Positions 8,091 to 18,611 of a stretch of DNA of 20,450 nucleotides are shown one piece after another; the first letter of the stretch is position 1, and each line of letters opens with the position of its first letter. The position numbers and the translations under genes were made by a program. The stretch is from a virus. The notes under the pieces are model-generated. The model was not told where the DNA came from. It saw only the letters and a list, made by a program, of their open reading frames with translations, and made no database searches. The DNA is taken from positions 1 to 20,450 of the IMG/VR virus record IMGVR_UViG_3300010883_000665; one strand, written 5' to 3'.

Positions 8091-8918
8091 TTAATTATTA
8101 TCTTTTATCCACATTATTAATGAATTAACCTCATCTTTCATATAAGGTAAATCATACATCTTTATTTCCTTTATTATAGGTTCTCCTTGATCATCATACT
8201 TAGTAATAGGATAACCATATTCATTCTCACTTTCTTTTTCAAAGCTAACATGTTGAATAACTAGTTTACCTGCCTTTAATTTAGGATTATGCTTTAGTAT
8301 AATATACAAATAAATACTGAGTTGTAAGGTATAATGTTTAAGATTACAGTCATCAAGGTGTGATAAAGGGTTATACATTTTTGAAGTTACACCTTCCCAG
8401 TTTGTAAAACCTTTAGTTTTTATTTCCTTATTTGTTTTATAATCTGTAATGTTTACTTTACCATTTACAATTGTTACTAAATCAGCTTGACCACATATTG
8501 CAGCTGATTTGAGATATGCAAAGTGTTCTGGATATACTCCGTCCTCTAATTTCTGCTCTGGAGCTATTTTAACACCGTTAGCATCAGTTATAGGTCTCAC
8601 AATAGGTATCTCTACCCCTTCACGTTCTATGGTCTTAAAATCAAGCAACCCTTCTTCTCTTTGATTATGATACCAGTTACCTAATTTAATTGCTCTCTTT
8701 GTTTCATTATTCCAAATTTCTATAACTTCTTTAGGTTTAAGTCCATACCATTTTGAGCGTTTATTTTTAGAAGATTTTTTAGCAACAGCTTTCTGATCAA
8801 ATTTAGGTTTAAATTTACCTATAAATGTAGTAACGCTAGTCCATACTATATTATCCTTCTCTAAATTTTCGTCTATACTCTCATACGTATGACCTTTTTC
8901 CTTAAATATTATAGCCAT
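8091..8918 (-). CDS. PD-(D/E)XK nuclease of the RecB/Cas4 type
   Basis: This 275-residue protein has the classic arrangement of this nuclease fold. His84 lies in GNWYHNQREEG, GQAD with Asp146 follows, then the active-site strand ITDYKTNKE (Asp159, Lys161), and a helix with LQLSIYLY, where Gln199 and Tyr203 match the QxxxY motif of RecB-like nucleases. The N-terminal half contains a basic, lysine-rich segment (KKSSKNKRSKWYG, about 47-59) that could contact DNA. No helicase or iron-sulfur cluster cysteines are present. It lies in the packaging cassette, so trimming or resolving DNA for packaging, or recombination, is more likely than defence. The motifs are clear, but the exact substrate cannot be read from the sequence. 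Confidence 0.85.
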   Translation of the reverse strand: MAIIFKEKGHTYESIDENLEKDNIVWTSVTTFIGKFKPKFDQKAVAKKSSKNKRSKWYGLKPKEVIEIWNNETKRAIKLGNWYHNQREEGLLDFKTIEREGVEIPIVRPITDANGVKIAPEQKLEDGVYPEHFAYLKSAAICGQADLVTIVNGKVNITDYKTNKEIKTKGFTNWEGVTSKMYNPLSHLDDCNLKHYTLQLSIYLYIILKHNPKLKAGKLVIQHVSFEKESENEYGYPITKYDDQGEPIIKEIKMYDLPYMKDEVNSLIMWIKDNN

Positions 8919-8920
8919 TT

Positions 8921-9256
8921 TTATTTATTTATTTCTTTTTCATTAGCAACGAGTTGGTCAAAGAGCTGTTTCTCTTCATCTGCAGTCATTAACTCTTTCC
9001 ACTTGTTTTTAGGGCAGCTTGTTGATAATGCTCTTGTTTTAAATGCTAATGAACAACCACATTCATCACAACAAGGTTGACTACCTGGAGCAGCACATTT
9101 TTTTCCTTCTGTATCTAAATGTTCACATTCTTTACATATTCCCCACCTTTCATTTGCTATTTGTTCAACATAGTCTCTCTTAAATATTTTATTTTTAACT
9201 CCCTCATATACCTCAGATATATTTTTTACTCCGTTTAATAGTTTACTTATGTTCAT
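8921..9256 (-). CDS. Cysteine-rich zinc-binding-like protein
   Basis: This 111-residue protein carries eight cysteines between residues 41 and 81: CKEC (41, 44), Cys54, CC (62, 63), CGC (66, 68) and Cys81 in STSCPKNKW. The spacing fits one or two zinc sites of a ribbon or knuckle type. A charged helical N-terminus (about 1-38) and an acidic C-terminus (TADEEKQLFDQ) flank this core. The gene starts 14 bases inside the end of the IHF-like gene and ends two bases before the nuclease gene, so the three are probably translated together. A nucleic-acid-binding or protein-interaction role is inferred. The fold is known to be versatile and I cannot say which partner it has. Confidence 0.7.
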   Translation of the reverse strand: MNISKLLNGVKNISEVYEGVKNKIFKRDYVEQIANERWGICKECEHLDTEGKKCAAPGSQPCCDECGCSLAFKTRALSTSCPKNKWKELMTADEEKQLFDQLVANEKEINK

Positions 9257-9629
9257 CTCTCCATTGGTTTTTTAATTCTATTTCATTATTGATCCTTTCT
9301 GAAGCTTTCTCCATGAGATCTAGCTTCTCTTTTATGGGTACGTGTTTGTTATATCCTTTAAAGGTTGTCTTCTCTAAATTACCTAACATATCCTTATGCC
9401 TTCTTATTGTTCTATCTAATCTTCCCTTTCTTGTTATGAATGTTCCAAGATTTGGTATTCTTATTCTGGTATAACTTAATGTTTCTATATTATTTCTAAT
9501 TTCATTATAAAAGAATCTAATAAACTCATCAACTAAATCAGGATGAACCTCACATTCCTCAGCAATATCTTCAAAGAATTTCTTATAACTCTTAGGATTA
9601 AGTTGCATATCTTTAGTTTCTATATTCAT
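9243..9629 (-). CDS. IHF/HU-like DNA-bending protein
   Basis: This 128-residue protein matches the bacterial HU/IHF fold. It has an N-terminal helical pair (SYKKFFEDIAEECEVHPDL, VDEFIRFFYNEIRNNIETL). The strand and turn signature RIRIPNLGTFITRKGR follows at about residues 55-70, where family members have IxGFGxF. Next comes a long basic arm (RTIRRHKDMLGNLEKTTFKGYNKH). It is longer than typical HU (about 90 residues) because of a charged C-terminal helix from about residue 98. HU/IHF proteins bend DNA, and IHF homologues are known in crAss-like phages, where packaging, nucleoid compaction or transcription roles are possible. The start shares one base with the upstream stop (TAATG). Confidence 0.85.
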   Translation of the reverse strand: MNIETKDMQLNPKSYKKFFEDIAEECEVHPDLVDEFIRFFYNEIRNNIETLSYTRIRIPNLGTFITRKGRLDRTIRRHKDMLGNLEKTTFKGYNKHVPIKEKLDLMEKASERINNEIELKNQWRDEHK

Positions 9630-10484: not shown

Positions 10485-10859
10485 CTAATTTTTTTTGTCT
10501 TTTTTGGTTTCTTTAAAAGCATTATTGAGAATTTTATTGAACTCTTTGGAGGCGTTCTTTTTTTGTTTTTTAACCTTGCTTTTTATTTTTTTAATTAGAT
10601 CTCTAATCTCAGAACATTTTTCATATTCTTCTGTTTCAACAAAAAAATCCATCATATTTGATAGTTCAGGGGTTTTTAAATCCGTAGAAGGATCATGAGC
10701 TATTAATAATCCTCCAGTTGATTGTACAATATCATTTATTGTTTTCCTCTCTGTAATTAAGTTATAAGAATTACGGAATGCTCTACTGAGTAGTTCCTGC
10801 TCTAGTATAGACTGTTCATACTCATTTAAATCTTCATATCCTTCTAATGGATCATTCAT
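10485..10859 (-). CDS. Small helical protein with a UVR-like helix pair, unrecognised
   Basis: This 124-residue protein begins MNDPLEGYEDLNEYEQSIL. Its first half is helical and polar. The middle region MMDFFVETEEYEKCSEIRDL (about 69-88) resembles the UVR helical hairpin (a D/E-Y/F-E-x-A/C-x-x-x-R-D pattern) that mediates protein contacts in UvrB, UvrC and Clp proteins. The C-terminus is lysine-rich (KKIKSKVKKQKKNASK, then KETKKDKKN) and may bind nucleic acid. It is the only complete minus-strand gene here to end in TAG. It lies directly after the giant gene, behind its own -33/-7 promoter. Function is unknown; the UVR resemblance is weak and limited to one helix pair. Confidence 0.65.
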   Translation of the reverse strand: MNDPLEGYEDLNEYEQSILEQELLSRAFRNSYNLITERKTINDIVQSTGGLLIAHDPSTDLKTPELSNMMDFFVETEEYEKCSEIRDLIKKIKSKVKKQKKNASKEFNKILNNAFKETKKDKKN

Positions 10860-10919: not shown

Positions 10920-13900
10920 TTATTTAGTAATAAATCCACCATCTACTGGTTTAATCATGTTATCAAATGGCTTACTATTTAACCCACCGTAATTGTTAGG
11001 CATAGTAAATCCAGATTTTCCTGGATTTGTTATATTCTGCATACGATAATTAACATTATATGATCCATCCGCATTGAATAGAGATACTGGTTGTCCCGTA
11101 TTTAAACCCAAAGGGGTTGTTCCTATTTGTAAAGGTTTTGGACTAAACGATGGATTAAATATTCTAGTTTTACCATCTAAGTTATATTTGTTTATATTGT
11201 ATTGCTTCCATAACGGTGAGTTCATACTAAAATTATAGTTTAGTTTACCTCCAAATTTATCACCTTTATTTAAATCACTCATTATACTATATTGTGTTGG
11301 TCGTGGATTTAATGAGATTGGTAACACACTGTTATTAATTTTACTAGTTGTATTTGGAAACATGGTAATAAATCTATTTGTACCACTTACAGCCTTATTT
11401 TGTTTGAAACCCATAGTTAAGTTATTCCAAGGGTTATATAATTTTTCATTAAACATATCCATTCTGTATTTTGCAGAAGTACCAATCTTAGAAGTATTTT
11501 CCCAGAGTTTTGTATTATTTAATAATTTATTGCTATTTGGAATTAAATTAAGATTCCTATTAAAGTATCCATAACCAGGTGCTACATTTAAACCAGTCCA
11601 AAATGCATCTTTAGTTGCGTCCCAATACTTTCCTTCACCCAAGTTTTTTATCATGTCTTTTCCATGACTATAACCAAAACCAGTAAGCAAAGCATTGTTT
11701 ACTGTTAAACCAGATGTACCACCATATAAACCTCCTGCAGATGTATTAAGAAAAAGAGAATTTTGAAATTGCTTACTACCCCATCTAATAGGTTGTAGTG
11801 CTGCATTTTTAGCCCATTGTTTAAAAGTCAGATCCGCACCAATCATTAAAGGATTTTTCTTCCATAATTGATATGCAGAATATGCTGCCATTCCATATAG
11901 ACTTATTTCTCCTAAATTTGTGTTGGATGAATTTATCTCATCATCTTTCAAAGATGTCATCTTTTTCCCATCAAGACCTATAAGATCACTCCTTAATAGA
12001 CTAAGATTTTGTCCTTGCATTATGTTATTTTGAAAAGTTCCTGGGTTATATTGACCCATATTTGCGGTTCCTAATCTCATAACCATATTACCATCTTCAT
12101 CTTTCTTATATCCAAACATTGCTTCTGTATCAGTGAAATCTATCATGTTTAAAAACTCATCCTGATTATAATTATTTAATAAATATCCATCATTACCATC
12201 ACCTGTTGGTCCTAAAGCATCAATCCATGATTGAGCATTCTCTGACCATTGACTAAGTTCTGGATTATATTCTGGATTAGCTACATATTTTCTAACATAT
12301 GTATTTGTTTTTGTATCTAATTCATCATAAGGGAATTCTTTTAACCATGGCATAAACTGTGGTACTTTTTCTAAATCAAAACCAAAACCCAACATTTTTG
12401 TTTTAAATCCAAGTACATTCTTAGAAAATGGACCACTAATCAAATTAAATAGATTTGCTTGTAATGCTTTTTCTGGACTATCTATCATTACGAAAGGATC
12501 TCCTTCTGAATGTAATTGAGTCTTATTATACATATTCATATATGGTATATATTGATCTTCTGTTTTAACAATATTACCATTTCCATCTCTATAACTTAAA
12601 TCATTAAACTGATGATTCTTAAATTCATGTGTCTCAAGAAATGCATTTTTCTCTTTTAAACTTGCAAATTGAGGTATATCCTGATTCACTAAGTCAAATA
12701 CATAATTACTAAAATAAGTATTTACTCCACTATACATATATTTTGTATATTGCTCTGTCTTATTTCTATATTCAGAAATAGATGTTTCAGCACCAATCTT
12801 TCCAGTCCTGTCTAGATAATTCTGTACAGCCAGTTTAAAGTTAGAATATTGATCTACATCATATTTCATTAATTCACTCCCTACCTCTACCCATTGTTTA
12901 TTATCAAAATCCCACCATTGTGTAGGTAGACCATTATCAAATGTTTCTGGATTAAAGAATTTAGTACCTTCTTCAGCTGACTTTTTCTGCTGTTTTATTT
13001 TATTCTTATCAAAAGAATCCCATGCTCCAACACTTCGCCAAGTTTGATTTTTATCAAATGATGGAGAGGTAGCTTGCATTTTATAAAAAGCTATTTGCTC
13101 TTGGTAAGAATTTAGCCTTTTCATAAATGCTGGATCATTTTCCCATTTAGAAAGATCTTCTCCCGCTCTTTTATGTATAAAATACATCATGGATCCGTCT
13201 ATCCAATTATCTTGGAAATTTAAATCTCCACTTAATTTAACTACGTTCCCATTTACATTTTGATATTTTCTTCTTGTATCATCTTCGTGATCTGGATGTG
13301 GGAAATCAGCCAAAGAAGCTTCCAACATTTTAATCTTTTCATCATAATTAACAATTGCTGCACCCTGTAATCTAAAACTTTCTGAATTACTTACATCTAA
13401 ATCTCCAAGATGCTTCTTTCTTAATTTTAAGATATGCATCAGTTGATCATTATTTAAATTAAAAGGATTAGTGTTATTATACATCATAGCCTGTGATTCT
13501 AAATCAGGTTTAAAGTTCTTTAAAATTTCTTGAACTTCTGTTTGTGATTGAGCATTACTCAGGTCAGTTTCAAACTTTAGAATCTGTGCACCCTTCTTTT
13601 TTCCGGTTCTTAATACCTTTTCATCTCCTTGATCACTTGTAAAAAATTGCCCTTGCCAAGCGTATAAAAGTCCTATAACACCATTCATATCACGTGCCAT
13701 AGCATGAGCTTGGGTGAAGGTTTTAGGAACGAAATAATTTTCATTTTGGTATGCGTTTGGATCTCCATCAGAAACTTCCATACTAGATCTGAAATATCCA
13801 TAATTTTTACCATCATAAGTTGAGCGTTGAAGAATATTAACTATTGGATTACCACCATCGTTATGTACACAAGTTCCTTTTTCTGTACAGTTTTCATTAT

Positions 13901-16900
13901 GGTTAAATGGTATATTATGTTGTGTATAATAGTACCAGTCTGTTAACTGCTTCCATGCAAAGCCTTTTCCACTTCTCCATTTACCAGCCTCTACAGGATC
14001 AATTCCTGTTTTAAGCATACCTGTATTAAAATCAACTAAGTCTTGAATTTCATAATCAACATATGGTCCTTCATACCATTCACCAGTAAAACTATCTGTT
14101 TTTCTTTTCTTTCCTTTTGTGCTTGTAGGATCTGTTGAAACAATCTCTTCAGAAGTCACCTCCCCTTTGCTTTGAAATTTAGGTAGAATCTCTCCACCTC
14201 TTCTGTATATTTTTGCTCCTTTAGAATATTGGCCTTTCTTAAACATTGAATTTGACTCTTTAAATGTCTTTGTATCCTTCACATCAGTCTTCCACTCTCC
14301 TTTTCTAGCAAAATTAATCATTGCTTGTCTTGTAGAAAATTTATATACTTCATCTCTTAATTTAGCTTCTTGATAAGCATCCAACGGTTCAAACCATTCA
14401 CCATTTACATCTTGGAATAATGTAGGCCATGCTTCATCTTTATTATTATCTGCCATCAAATGAGTTGAATGAGAACCATCTTCATTTTCTCTTACACCAT
14501 CTCTAGTATTTTTTATTCTTTGATAATTTTTAGAGTCACTATAATTAGTTTTTGATGGATCTACTATTTCTTTTCCAGTTTGAGCTTTAGGTAACTCTGC
14601 ACCATACTTTGCATTCATAACTGGTGGAAGATCATCACCGCCTATTTCCTGTTGATTTTCCATTGCAATATTATTATTAAGAAATATAAAATCTCTTTCT
14701 TTATATCTTTCCAATGTTCTTTGTAAATCAATAGGTACTTTTTCCATATCTATCTCACCATCATCTCCTCTATATTTATCTAAGTATTTGTCTAGTGTTT
14801 TTTGATCTAAATCACCTTCTCTATAGTCATATATCCCTGATTTATACATGTCATATCTTACAGCATCCATATCTGCCTTAGCTTCAGTAACTCCTCTTAC
14901 ATATGTATCATCTTTAACATGCTCATCCACTTTATCACCTCCACTTACATTAATTCCATAGTTTTCTCTCATCATCTGTCTCATGAGTTCTGCCTCATTA
15001 TCACTAATAGAATAGTTTTGATTTGCAAATCTTCCTGCTCCTATTCCATCTTGGTTATAGTTAGTACCATAACCACTATATCCTGGTTCATAAACAGCTC
15101 CTAGAGAATGCCCTACTTCATGTGCGTATACTCTAGCTTCTGCCTCATCATATGTTATACCAGCTTCATCTGCTATTTGTTGAATTTGAGATGGAGTCAT
15201 TTGCATTGAAACCTTTCTATCATTAGTTTTATATTCTACATTTCCATCTGCATCTGTAACTCCAGTTTTCGTATTGAGATGAGGAGCTGTATCTGAATGG
15301 CTACCCAAATATTTACCACTTTCGTCACTCTTAGGCTGAAAAGCCCATATAAAATCATCATATAAGTTATCTGGTAATATAGATATGAGTTTTTTCATAT
15401 CATATTTACCATTTTCATCTCTCTCTATTCCATTTTCTTTTGCAAAAGTTTGTAATGCATCACTTACATGATGTACTTTTTGATACATTCTATTATCATA
15501 CTCAGAAGAGTAATCTGTTGTCATAGTCTTTAAAGCATTCAATCTATTGCTAACAGTCTCATCAACTATAGTTTGATTTTTAGTATTTTCTTCATCAGAA
15601 TCCCATGATTGGAATGGCATATCTACACTCATAGCTTGCCACTGATCATCATTATACCACTCAGGATCTATTTCATCTGCAGTTGCACGGGTTACCATAC
15701 CATGATCTGGATGGAACACATAAGCTTCCCACCCATCCCCCGTACCAATATCTCTAATACTTCCTTGTAAGGCTAAACGTTTTTTGTAAATATCAGAGTT
15801 TAATGAACCTTCAAAAAATTCATCAATCTCATCCATCTCTGTACTTCTTTGTCCTGATGGTGTTGTTGTGGAATATTCATTAGAATCTACAGTAAATGGT
15901 ATATAATTACCATATTCATCTAATATAGGTTCTCCAGTGGTTTCACCTATTCTAATATCTCCTTGAAACTTAGGTAATTCAGCACCATACTTAGCATACA
16001 TACCTTGTAAATCATCTCCACCTATTTCACCATCTCCACCTATCCCAGAATTATCAGCAACATTATTCATGATCTCAAATAGATGTTGCTTTGATATTTT
16101 TTTATTAAACTCAGATCCGTCATTTCCATCATCTCCAAAGAATTCTTTAACATCATCATATCCATCTAATCCTTTGAACTCTTCTGAATTCATATATTCT
16201 TCTAACTTAATATAGTTATCTTCTGTAAATTCAGTTTCTGTAAATGAATTAAATATTCCTTTATCTTGCATCATTTTTTGTGCCACCTTATATCTCGCAT
16301 ATACTTCAGTTGGATTTGTTAAATAATTCCCTGATTCTTTATGCGTTTCCTCTTCTTTCCATTGATTATATGAATCCTTTAGGTTACTTGTAAGTGGTGA
16401 TGAGCCATTAAAGATGTTTGATATAAGACTACCCTTTTCTTCTGTATTAACGTTTGCTTTCCAATCCTTAAACGACATATCTGATCTATTTTCAGTTGTT
16501 TTAGCTTTTCTTAACAACTCTGTAGCATATGGTGTCATTGCATTATTAGCATTTGTTGTTCCATGAGTTAATTCATGTGTTCTGAGATTAGTAAAATCAC
16601 TTCCCATAGGAATATTTACATCACCTGACATATCAGAACCATAATATATACGTGGATACTTTTGCTTTTTATTACTTGGTAGCATCACACCACCAGCAGT
16701 TTCAAAAAACTTATTACCCAGTCTGATATCCATTATTGCACCTTCCTGGTCATAATCTTTAGGTCTACCTAAAAACTCTTTTACGTTGTTTAGATTATCT
16801 AATCTAAAATCTTTAGTGTGTACTCCTAGTCCACTTCCAATTCCATCAGCAAAATTATAACTTTCTGTATCAAGATTATAACCTGCTAATTTATTATTTG

Positions 16901-18611
16901 CAAGTTCTCTTTGCCATCTTGCATCATATCCTGCAGAATTAATATCATTAATTAGATAATTTTTAGCATCAGAGTTTTGATTAAGTACTATTTCATCATT
17001 AATCGTATTATATGTATTACCTGAACCATCATTAAAAGTTCCATCAGGATCTATATCATCTGCAGAAATAGAAGAACGTGACACAGTACTAATGTTTCTT
17101 AATAAATCATCATGACTATGACCATGTCCATCACCTAAATAATGTTCTCCTGTATTTTGATACTTAGGAAGTGAACCACCATATCTCATCATCTGTGTTC
17201 CTTCTTCCATTTGCCCACCTGTGAAATCCTGCAATCCACCAGAATTTTCATCAAAAGCTACAATATTTAACTTTTCAGCAGCTATTTCTAAAGTTCCATA
17301 TCTTTCTAATAACCCTGTAACTCTATGTGATCCCTGACCACCCTTATCTATTAGTTGTTGTAAAAGCTCTGCAGTTATAGGTACATAATTTGGATCTCCC
17401 ACAGATAGATCATTATTATAACCTAATTCTCTACTTAATGCCATTTGTGTTGCAAAATACTCAGGGTATACTTCAACTTCATGAGAGTCATGTCTATGAG
17501 GTTCACTACTAAATTTATCTACCAACATAGTTCTACCTATAGTTGCATCTTTTATATCATTAAATCCTAGGATTTCAGCGTCCTTTGATTCCTTTATTAG
17601 TCCAGTATATTCATCATCATTTTTCCAACTAGTAATTTCTCCTTGACTATTATATCTAGTACCTGTACCTGTTCTATTATTAAGTTTTCTATAATAAGTT
17701 GTTCCTCCTAATTCTGCAGCTCTAGCGTTTATCTCATCTAATTTAGCCTGTTCTTTCTTATTTAGTTTTCCTTTTTTACCACGCTTACTGTTCAGAAGTT
17801 CTTCTCTTTCAGTCATTATAGCATCATATTCAACTTGAAATATTTGAGATTCTAATTCTCCATTCTCTTTTTTAACTTTCCAAGCATTCCATTTCTCTTC
17901 ATTAAAAACTTTTTTAGTTCCAGGAAATGTTTCATCTGGTACAGTATAATTATATATACTTCCTTCCATTCTTCCTTGTGCATTAACCACTCCCTCTGTT
18001 TGAGGACCATTCAGAAACGCCTCTTCTCTTATTATGTTTCCTTGATTTATAGTATTAGCATCATTAGCATTCATGGGAACAAGATTAGCCTGGGCTAGTT
18101 CCTCCTTAGTCATTAGACCTGGATATTTTATGTCACTATAAGATCCTCCTACCGAATGTCCTATTTCATGATCTACTGTTCCGTCATCATAACCGAACAT
18201 TGGATTTAATAATATATCTGGATGTGCATTTATAGAGGTGGTTTGATCTCCTGTCTGACCGGTATTACGACCAAGACGTATTTCATACAATTTAGCTAAT
18301 CTAGCTGCGATTGTAGCGTCTGGATCTGGATACCCTTGGGATACTAATTTTTCCCTGTACCTAGTACCAGATATATAATTATAAGCTTCTTGAAAATTAT
18401 CCTCAAACATATAATTATTTAATTCCTCATCCTCAAAAGATCCAAACATTCTATTATCTGTATTTGGAATTATGACCGGGCCTTGATCTGTATTTATTGT
18501 GGCTTTTGTTTCTTTACCCGTTTGTAATTTTCTCATTGGTTCTCCCCCCTTTTTAGAAGCACCCATCTCTTTCACGAGGTTCAACCACATATTTGTTTTT
18601 CCTGATCCCAT
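10920..18611 (-). CDS. Giant modular virion-type protein with three zinc-peptidase-like modules
   Basis: A single uninterrupted frame encodes 2563 residues. Module 1 (about 33-475) has HEIGHS (His148, Glu149, His152) and a possible third ligand Glu384 in YPEYFA. Module 2 (about 489-870) has HELTH (679-683) and Glu769 in NPTEVYARY. Module 3 (about 884-1331) has HEVGHS (1164-1169) and Glu1243 in TEAKADMDAVRY. HExxH plus a downstream Glu is the gluzincin zinc site. Module 4 (about 1345-1470) is short. The last 1090 residues are unrecognised, with a Gly-rich, mildly hydrophobic stretch near 2284-2345. A YG[GA]xLPKxQ-like motif marks each boundary. Size and position suggest an internal virion or ejected protein; peptidase activity and self-processing are inferred. 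The start may be Met8 (18590), because a -7 promoter box lies only four bases before the first ATG. Confidence 0.85.
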   Translation of the reverse strand: MGSGKTNMWLNLVKEMGASKKGGEPMRKLQTGKETKATINTDQGPVIIPNTDNRMFGSFEDEELNNYMFEDNFQEAYNYISGTRYREKLVSQGYPDPDATIAARLAKLYEIRLGRNTGQTGDQTTSINAHPDILLNPMFGYDDGTVDHEIGHSVGGSYSDIKYPGLMTKEELAQANLVPMNANDANTINQGNIIREEAFLNGPQTEGVVNAQGRMEGSIYNYTVPDETFPGTKKVFNEEKWNAWKVKKENGELESQIFQVEYDAIMTEREELLNSKRGKKGKLNKKEQAKLDEINARAAELGGTTYYRKLNNRTGTGTRYNSQGEITSWKNDDEYTGLIKESKDAEILGFNDIKDATIGRTMLVDKFSSEPHRHDSHEVEVYPEYFATQMALSRELGYNNDLSVGDPNYVPITAELLQQLIDKGGQGSHRVTGLLERYGTLEIAAEKLNIVAFDENSGGLQDFTGGQMEEGTQMMRYGGSLPKYQNTGEHYLGDGHGHSHDDLLRNISTVSRSSISADDIDPDGTFNDGSGNTYNTINDEIVLNQNSDAKNYLINDINSAGYDARWQRELANNKLAGYNLDTESYNFADGIGSGLGVHTKDFRLDNLNNVKEFLGRPKDYDQEGAIMDIRLGNKFFETAGGVMLPSNKKQKYPRIYYGSDMSGDVNIPMGSDFTNLRTHELTHGTTNANNAMTPYATELLRKAKTTENRSDMSFKDWKANVNTEEKGSLISNIFNGSSPLTSNLKDSYNQWKEEETHKESGNYLTNPTEVYARYKVAQKMMQDKGIFNSFTETEFTEDNYIKLEEYMNSEEFKGLDGYDDVKEFFGDDGNDGSEFNKKISKQHLFEIMNNVADNSGIGGDGEIGGDDLQGMYAKYGAELPKFQGDIRIGETTGEPILDEYGNYIPFTVDSNEYSTTTPSGQRSTEMDEIDEFFEGSLNSDIYKKRLALQGSIRDIGTGDGWEAYVFHPDHGMVTRATADEIDPEWYNDDQWQAMSVDMPFQSWDSDEENTKNQTIVDETVSNRLNALKTMTTDYSSEYDNRMYQKVHHVSDALQTFAKENGIERDENGKYDMKKLISILPDNLYDDFIWAFQPKSDESGKYLGSHSDTAPHLNTKTGVTDADGNVEYKTNDRKVSMQMTPSQIQQIADEAGITYDEAEARVYAHEVGHSLGAVYEPGYSGYGTNYNQDGIGAGRFANQNYSISDNEAELMRQMMRENYGINVSGGDKVDEHVKDDTYVRGVTEAKADMDAVRYDMYKSGIYDYREGDLDQKTLDKYLDKYRGDDGEIDMEKVPIDLQRTLERYKERDFIFLNNNIAMENQQEIGGDDLPPVMNAKYGAELPKAQTGKEIVDPSKTNYSDSKNYQRIKNTRDGVRENEDGSHSTHLMADNNKDEAWPTLFQDVNGEWFEPLDAYQEAKLRDEVYKFSTRQAMINFARKGEWKTDVKDTKTFKESNSMFKKGQYSKGAKIYRRGGEILPKFQSKGEVTSEEIVSTDPTSTKGKKRKTDSFTGEWYEGPYVDYEIQDLVDFNTGMLKTGIDPVEAGKWRSGKGFAWKQLTDWYYYTQHNIPFNHNENCTEKGTCVHNDGGNPIVNILQRSTYDGKNYGYFRSSMEVSDGDPNAYQNENYFVPKTFTQAHAMARDMNGVIGLLYAWQGQFFTSDQGDEKVLRTGKKKGAQILKFETDLSNAQSQTEVQEILKNFKPDLESQAMMYNNTNPFNLNNDQLMHILKLRKKHLGDLDVSNSESFRLQGAAIVNYDEKIKMLEASLADFPHPDHEDDTRRKYQNVNGNVVKLSGDLNFQDNWIDGSMMYFIHKRAGEDLSKWENDPAFMKRLNSYQEQIAFYKMQATSPSFDKNQTWRSVGAWDSFDKNKIKQQKKSAEEGTKFFNPETFDNGLPTQWWDFDNKQWVEVGSELMKYDVDQYSNFKLAVQNYLDRTGKIGAETSISEYRNKTEQYTKYMYSGVNTYFSNYVFDLVNQDIPQFASLKEKNAFLETHEFKNHQFNDLSYRDGNGNIVKTEDQYIPYMNMYNKTQLHSEGDPFVMIDSPEKALQANLFNLISGPFSKNVLGFKTKMLGFGFDLEKVPQFMPWLKEFPYDELDTKTNTYVRKYVANPEYNPELSQWSENAQSWIDALGPTGDGNDGYLLNNYNQDEFLNMIDFTDTEAMFGYKKDEDGNMVMRLGTANMGQYNPGTFQNNIMQGQNLSLLRSDLIGLDGKKMTSLKDDEINSSNTNLGEISLYGMAAYSAYQLWKKNPLMIGADLTFKQWAKNAALQPIRWGSKQFQNSLFLNTSAGGLYGGTSGLTVNNALLTGFGYSHGKDMIKNLGEGKYWDATKDAFWTGLNVAPGYGYFNRNLNLIPNSNKLLNNTKLWENTSKIGTSAKYRMDMFNEKLYNPWNNLTMGFKQNKAVSGTNRFITMFPNTTSKINNSVLPISLNPRPTQYSIMSDLNKGDKFGGKLNYNFSMNSPLWKQYNINKYNLDGKTRIFNPSFSPKPLQIGTTPLGLNTGQPVSLFNADGSYNVNYRMQNITNPGKSGFTMPNNYGGLNSKPFDNMIKPVDGGFITK
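14172..14201 (-). repeat. Boundary motif copy 5 in the giant protein
   Basis: RGGEILPKFQ at residues 1471-1480, between the short fourth module and the long C-terminal region. It has one extra residue compared with copies 2-4. Confidence 0.7.
14580..14606 (-). repeat. Boundary motif copy 4 in the giant protein
   Basis: YGAELPKAQ at residues 1336-1344, after peptidase-like module 3. It is preceded by EIGGDDL (1322-1328), as copy 3 is. Confidence 0.8.
15963..15989 (-). repeat. Boundary motif copy 3 in the giant protein
   Basis: YGAELPKFQ at residues 875-883, after peptidase-like module 2. It is preceded by EIGGDDL (862-868). Confidence 0.8.
17157..17183 (-). repeat. Boundary motif copy 2 in the giant protein
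   Basis: YGGSLPKYQ at residues 477-485, after peptidase-like module 1. It is followed directly by a His-rich stretch, GHGHSHDD. Confidence 0.8.
18522..18548 (-). repeat. Boundary motif copy 1, degenerate, in the giant protein
   Basis: GGEPMRKLQ at residues 22-30, followed by TGKE exactly as in copy 4 (AQTGKE). It marks the start of the first module and is the most diverged copy. Confidence 0.5.

Follow-up and report, generated by a model that had tools for sequence, protein, structure and literature searches.

A cassette-built crAss-like phage polyprotein with three zincin-like modules and a recurring peptide tag, possibly a virion payload

Introduction

Few known viruses are as abundant as the crAss-like phages. 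In podoviruses, transglycosylase ejection proteins of the T7 gp16 type carry a wall-degrading SLT module within a large virion protein. Bacterial polymorphic toxins have a conserved N-terminal part, behind which enzymatic domains, including metallopeptidases, can be exchanged. In crAss001, the large cargo proteins gp45, gp46 and gp47 are encoded between the muzzle and RNA polymerase genes; together with gp49 and gp50 they were detected in virions, and their ejection in a partly unfolded state has been proposed (PMC10172136). The internal proteins of T4, with their capsid targeting sequences, and the ejection proteins of SPN3US (PMC10052503, PMC9026906) are packed and injected, and they bear a short linear peptide that is N-terminal, usually present once per protein and cut by a known prohead protease.

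Here we describe a 2563-aa open reading frame (ORF) in a virus record of 20.45 kb (the whole stretch analysed, referred to as the window), along with related ORFs carrying the same peptide tag. Like the crAss001 cargo, these tagged ORFs encode large proteins and, in most relatives, appear by gene order to stand at the corresponding place. Unlike that cargo, which has neither the tag nor repeated cassettes and whose gp45 and gp46 lack similarity to the tagged ORFs, the window ORF lies upstream of the terminase gene (TerL). The short peptide recalls T4 and SPN3US, although it recurs within one chain here and no protease was recognised for it among 10 proteins of a relative. An SLT domain is shared with T7 gp16-type proteins by three tagged ORFs (in L099, L139 and G013), whereas the T7 type has no zincins and no tag and is conserved between relatives. 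Bacterial polymorphic toxin and effector proteins (PMC3482391) resemble the many tagged ORFs in which a conserved N-terminal domain of 80-90 aa is followed by variable modules; the tagged ORFs differ in being phage-borne, in having several cassettes per chain with the same tag between all of them, and in that no immunity gene was seen. Ejection proteins and crAss cargo are known kinds of protein. The variant described here strings together exchangeable enzyme cassettes, up to three of them zincins, with one short tag as the joint. The open-licence literature that we searched holds no description of such a string, which is weak evidence of absence.

Results

A recurrent tag divides the ORF into five modules

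The reading frame spanning 10920-18611 belongs to the minus strand, the only one on which it is open, and runs without interruption (Table 1). Four copies of a tag with the pattern [KR]YG[GA]xLPK[AYF]Q(xG), or for the window copies in full [KR]-[YR]-G-[GA]-x-(x)-[LI]-P-K-[AYF]-Q, mark the module borders (residues 476, 874, 1335 and 1470) and split the protein into modules M1-M5. Neither the strand nor the tag had been recorded in the initial annotation. The N-terminus of the ORF, MGxxxxxWxxLVxxMG, also opens an ORF of the relative L097, and tag variants of the form KYQxGG or KAQxG are found close to the N-termini of several relatives' ORFs.

Table 1. Features of the window ORF, with positions in the window.
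Feature	Position	Strand	Basis or remark
2563-aa ORF, cassette-built polyprotein	10920..18611	-	start codon 18611, stop 10920-10922
N-terminal tag-like peptide MRKLQTGKE, residues 26-34	18510..18536	-	cf. LPKAQTGKE from residue 1340
M1, residues 35-475, zincin-like, HEIGH148, E384	17187..18509	-	relative L139; remote M3-profile match
HExxH of M1, residues 148-152 (HEIGH)	18156..18170	-	sequence
Tag 1 RYGGSLPKYQ, residues 476-485	17157..17186	-	sequence
M2, residues 486-873, zincin-like, HELTH679, E769	15993..17156	-	L143 match, tag to tag
HExxH of M2, residues 679-683 (HELTH)	16563..16577	-	sequence
Tag 2 KYGAELPKFQ, residues 874-883	15963..15992	-	sequence
M3, residues 884-1334, zincin-like, HEVGH1164, E1243	14610..15962	-	relatives L116, L112, L102, L123
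HExxH of M3, residues 1164-1168 (HEVGH)	15108..15122	-	sequence
Tag 3 KYGAELPKAQ, residues 1335-1344	14580..14609	-	sequence
M4, residues 1345-1469, small domain STHLMADNNKDEAWPTLFQ	14205..14579	-	in other phages' large ORFs
Tag 4 RRGGEILPKFQ, residues 1470-1480	14172..14204	-	sequence
M5, residues 1481-2563	10923..14171	-	no relative found

When IMG/VR was scanned with a degenerate DNA pattern encoding YGGxLPKAQ, 62 stretches were recovered, and nearly all of them fall within large modular ORFs that belong to crAss-like phages. A shorter pattern was applied to 24 whole records; in 23 of them, the tag copies cluster on a single strand within a region no longer than about 11 kb. Across 95 copies in 61 non-redundant ORFs, conservation is limited to about 12 residues, and the K/R and YGG before the LPKxQ seed and the G after its Q stand out even though they lie outside it. 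The codons of the tag vary freely (35 different 15-mers in 83 sites), indicating that selection acts on the peptide; a role as DNA-level recombination site was rejected as the reason for its conservation in view of this synonymous variation. With the G added, the pattern had no match when 84,980 genomes of bacteria and archaea were scanned. Nor did any relevant paper in the open-licence literature searched contain the tag string. Because the tag stays fixed while its surroundings change, some component that these phages share must recognise it; the packing or ejection machinery and a maturation protease are candidates.

The small M4 has relatives in L001 (69% identity), L002, L091, L096 and others, while its matches in isolated phages reached E 0.8 at best and were not used. 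Searches for relatives of M5, which makes up 42% of the protein, returned none. Neither the window ORF nor that of the relative L133 matched isolated phages, and the relative L107 did so mainly through its LysM and lysin parts. Several tagged ORFs also contain the M4 domain (STHLMADNNKDEAWPTLFQ), as do large ORFs beside the portal gene in phages of other groups (L001, L002).

Three modules carry zincin-like sites with a conserved third ligand

The claim of the initial annotation that one frame holds three zinc-peptidase-like modules is borne out at the level of sequence: HExxH sites are present at residues 148, 679 and 1164, and each is followed by a Glu in an E-x-x-[AS] context (YPEYFA, E384; NPTEVYAR, E769; VTEAKAD, E1243). 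In shuffled proteins of the same composition, HExxH occurs 0.04 times on average, and 0.05% of the shuffles contain at least three. Three per ORF is the most we have seen, and to that extent the arrangement is unusual as first proposed; the tagged ORFs of relatives often carry one such site and sometimes two.

M2 and M3 are homologous across their C-terminal half (blastp 2e-5), and a profile comparison with the tag removed linked them at 94% probability (shuffled maximum 0.7%). M1 was linked to M3 at 45% (shuffled maximum 0.2%), also without the tag, and was unlinked to M2. By sequence, M2 and M3 are clear homologues and M1 is a distant one, and these links point to one diverged superfamily rather than three peptidase clans. 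Thus the modules had rightly been described as too different for plain tandem copies, but they are diverged homologues, and the peptidases are distinct only in part since the C-terminal half, including the third-ligand helix, is common. Simple tandem duplication was rejected: the modules share less than 31% identity and resemble modules from other phages more than they resemble one another.

To compare the putative metal ligands, we aligned 23 modules that had been picked by HExxH alone; invariance of that motif is therefore expected, while the downstream Glu played no part in the selection. The third Glu is present in 22 of the 23, mostly as P-x-E-x-x-[AS] and often followed by Arg. Spacing between HExxH and Glu ranges from 44 to 236, and E384 of M1 is the least certain assignment. 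In an alignment of M3 with its four relatives (Table 1), H, E, H, E1243 and R are all invariant, and M2 is 34-37% identical to its L143 counterpart over the whole module. Searched alone in IMG/VR, M1 returned no relative and M2 returned L143 as its single one. Retention of the third Glu in modules chosen for HExxH only speaks against the suggestion that the modules are dead structural folds. Since all metal ligands are kept, the three cassettes are probably active metallopeptidases of a gluzincin-like kind.

M3 matched the Pfam family Reprolysin_5 with E 5.7e-4 and 20.6 bits, below the curated cut-off of 27. A reprolysin-like M12B assignment was rejected on this sub-threshold score and on the third ligand, as the downstream His of metzincins was not seen and a Glu stands instead. 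AlphaFold models of M1 and of M2+M3 reached pLDDT values of 36 and 42 because there are too few relatives, and the zincin fold is accordingly a prediction from sequence. Foldseek gave no match for the poor M2+M3 model, as expected for such a model, and the M3 profile found no match among PDB sequences.

Cassettes are exchanged at the tag

Comparisons between relatives place the borders of exchanged segments at the tag. The similarity of window M2 to L143 spans one whole tag-to-tag interval. The G007 ORF has 716 residues more than that of G006, the ends of the insertion fall on tag copies at 522 and 1238, and the rest is 88-97% identical; between G013 and G021, similarity starts 4 residues ahead of a tag. 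Of 305 internal HSP ends, 35 fall no more than 20 aa from a tag in each of the two proteins, compared with 5% of residues that near; this test is supportive, but the tag itself helps to seed matches. Turnover is high: in 10 comparisons among phages whose TerL is about 80-87% identical to that of the window, no more than 12% of the tagged ORF could be aligned. Because contig ends truncate several of these ORFs, the figure covers the sequenced parts. Iterated profile searches drifted, the shared tag end drawing in unrelated modules, and were left unused.

The tagged ORFs of relatives mix zincins with LysM, SLT, YkuD and PG_binding_1 domains. By eye, further module types were noted. In L143:9450-13799 (minus), a tag-bounded module at residues about 760-930 resembles an outer-membrane beta-barrel (alternating GATMSVGK..SSFGLSGGYTF..) and the end of the ORF looks ADP-ribosyltransferase-like. 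A segment with the look of a T4-type lysozyme (L116:3-7622, minus, about residues 1370-1560) and one with that of an NlpC/P60 or CHAP amidase (L103:2323-7944, minus, about 1370-1530) have no Pfam match.

By gene order, tagged ORFs of most relatives appear to stand at the crAss001 cargo place

The window's TerL and portal proteins match those of crAss-like, Flavobacterium and Cellulophaga phages at about 22-27% identity, and the portal is 34% identical to that of Leptolyngbya phage Lbo-JY46. From its TerL, portal and major capsid protein (MCP) genes, the window is assigned to a Crassvirales-like phage; the RNA polymerase block was seen in the relative G009 and is absent from the 20-kb window. 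At least 80 IMG/VR contigs encode a TerL 71-89% identical to that of the window, and those examined keep the order small genes, TerL, portal, scaffold-like gene, MCP. G009 (114 kb) has the window's gene order with a 2737-aa ORF in the same place as the window ORF, and two very large ORFs elsewhere in it match crAss001 gp50 (1.8e-13) and gp49 (9.8e-25), the virion RNA polymerase block.

The gene order in most genomes is a conserved ORF of 1550-2800 aa, the tagged ORFs, conserved ORFs of about 1150 aa and then the RNA polymerase block. The large ORF ahead of them stands in the place of the crAss001 muzzle gene, an identification by position only, and by gene order the tagged ORFs stand in the place of gp45/gp46. 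G009 ORFs have no detectable sequence similarity to gp45 or gp46. Both the window ORF and the tagged ORF of G009 lie upstream of TerL, outside the cargo block.

Several other features of these genomes were observed. The small genes upstream of TerL, a set conserved across the window's relatives, encode a protein with a UvrB/C motif (E 2e-5; 10485-10859), an HU/IHF-like protein (9243-9629) and a PDDEXK exonuclease (8091-8918). The replication region of G009 holds an HExxH protein unrelated to the tagged ORFs (19815-20996, minus; 394 aa, MKHEILHVGF). In the isolated phage Lbo-JY46, an ORF (L148:2471-3943, XAI97384.1) begins ...KIRIIGLPKAQIG; a phage of a Bacteroidetes-type group on a cyanobacterium is odd, and the true host may be a companion bacterium.

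Discussion

We consider it somewhat probable that the window ORF encodes a payload polyprotein of a crAss-like phage, made of interchangeable tag-set cassettes and delivering active metallopeptidases. Such a polyprotein would be made late in infection and packed in the head, with the tag either aiding packing or ejection or marking where the chain is cut between cassettes. Upon infection it would leave by threading through the tail and then regain its fold in the periplasm or cytoplasm. There, the peptidases may cut host proteins, and the wall-degrading cassettes of relatives may open peptidoglycan. A payload nature is suggested by the LysM, SLT, YkuD and PG_binding_1 domains in relatives' tagged ORFs and by the cargo locus of most of them, and catalysis by the conserved third Glu. 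The same locus and the co-occurring wall-degrading modules favour the earlier suggestion of host-protein cleavage after ejection, a step that we infer. Counting against a payload are the position of the window and G009 ORFs upstream of TerL, the lack of similarity to gp45 and gp46, the low-confidence structure models, the large M5 without a relative, and the lack of a recognised maturation protease among the 10 G009 structural-gene proteins scanned.

The main rival, which we regard as unlikely, casts the zincins as maturation proteases: during assembly they would cleave their own polyprotein at the tags, and the remaining modules would be the products set free. An HExxH lies 129-333 residues ahead of a tag in 24 of 27 cases in tagged ORFs, and the occurrence of the tag between modules, with a variant form near some N-termini, is as expected of a cut site; in large phage heads such as that of SPN3US, propeptides of packed proteins are indeed cut (PMC10052503). 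Among the stretches examined, however, 8 of 21 genomes with tagged ORFs have no HExxH in the tagged ORF, which speaks against a requirement in cis, and proteases acting in cis need not be so diverse while their site stays fixed.

An external structural part (a fibre, tail or decoration protein), in which the zincin folds are binding or structural modules, seems rather improbable. Such a part would fit a gene at the head of the structural block by TerL, portal and MCP, and receptor-binding proteins typically show such high turnover from one close relative to another. Against this, the metal ligands remain conserved, most of the accompanying domains are enzymes that degrade the cell wall or modules that bind it, and the locus in most genomes is the cargo place and not the fibre place.

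We give still less credence to an intracellular or lysis effector made late and acting outside the virion. Packaging of the tagged proteins is itself a prediction; against this alternative, the gene lies in the cargo block in most relatives. Finally, chance or decayed HExxH motifs without a zincin fold are very improbable, as the low-confidence models and sub-cut-off Pfam matches that would allow for them are set against three sites where 0.04 are expected and the independent conservation of the third Glu.

If the payload metallopeptidases are active, this would point to cleavage of host proteins at the start of infection. A fixed tag on exchangeable payload cassettes would offer a handle for listing injected enzymes from sequence alone, and it makes the choice between routing to the virion and cleavage directly testable with foreign proteins. 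More tentatively, and with slightly more doubt than belief, we propose that many aquatic crAss-like phages inject polyproteins of exchangeable enzyme cassettes (zincins, lysozyme-like or other wall-cutting enzymes, effectors), each marked by one universal peptide that may be a packing signal, ejection element or cut site and also a joint for exchange at the protein level.

A zincin-like site was also noted in the crAss001 cargo itself. The crAss literature searched does not mention such a domain in gp47, and the words zinc, protease and peptidase are absent there. In gp47, which is associated with the RNA polymerase (L144:35114-42142), a YHE[AG][FWG]H site at residue 2158 (HEAFH at 2159) is followed by E-x-x-A in a conserved acidic segment, and the same site and segment are found in giant ORFs of G003, G005, G009, G010, G011, G013, G016, G018 and G022.
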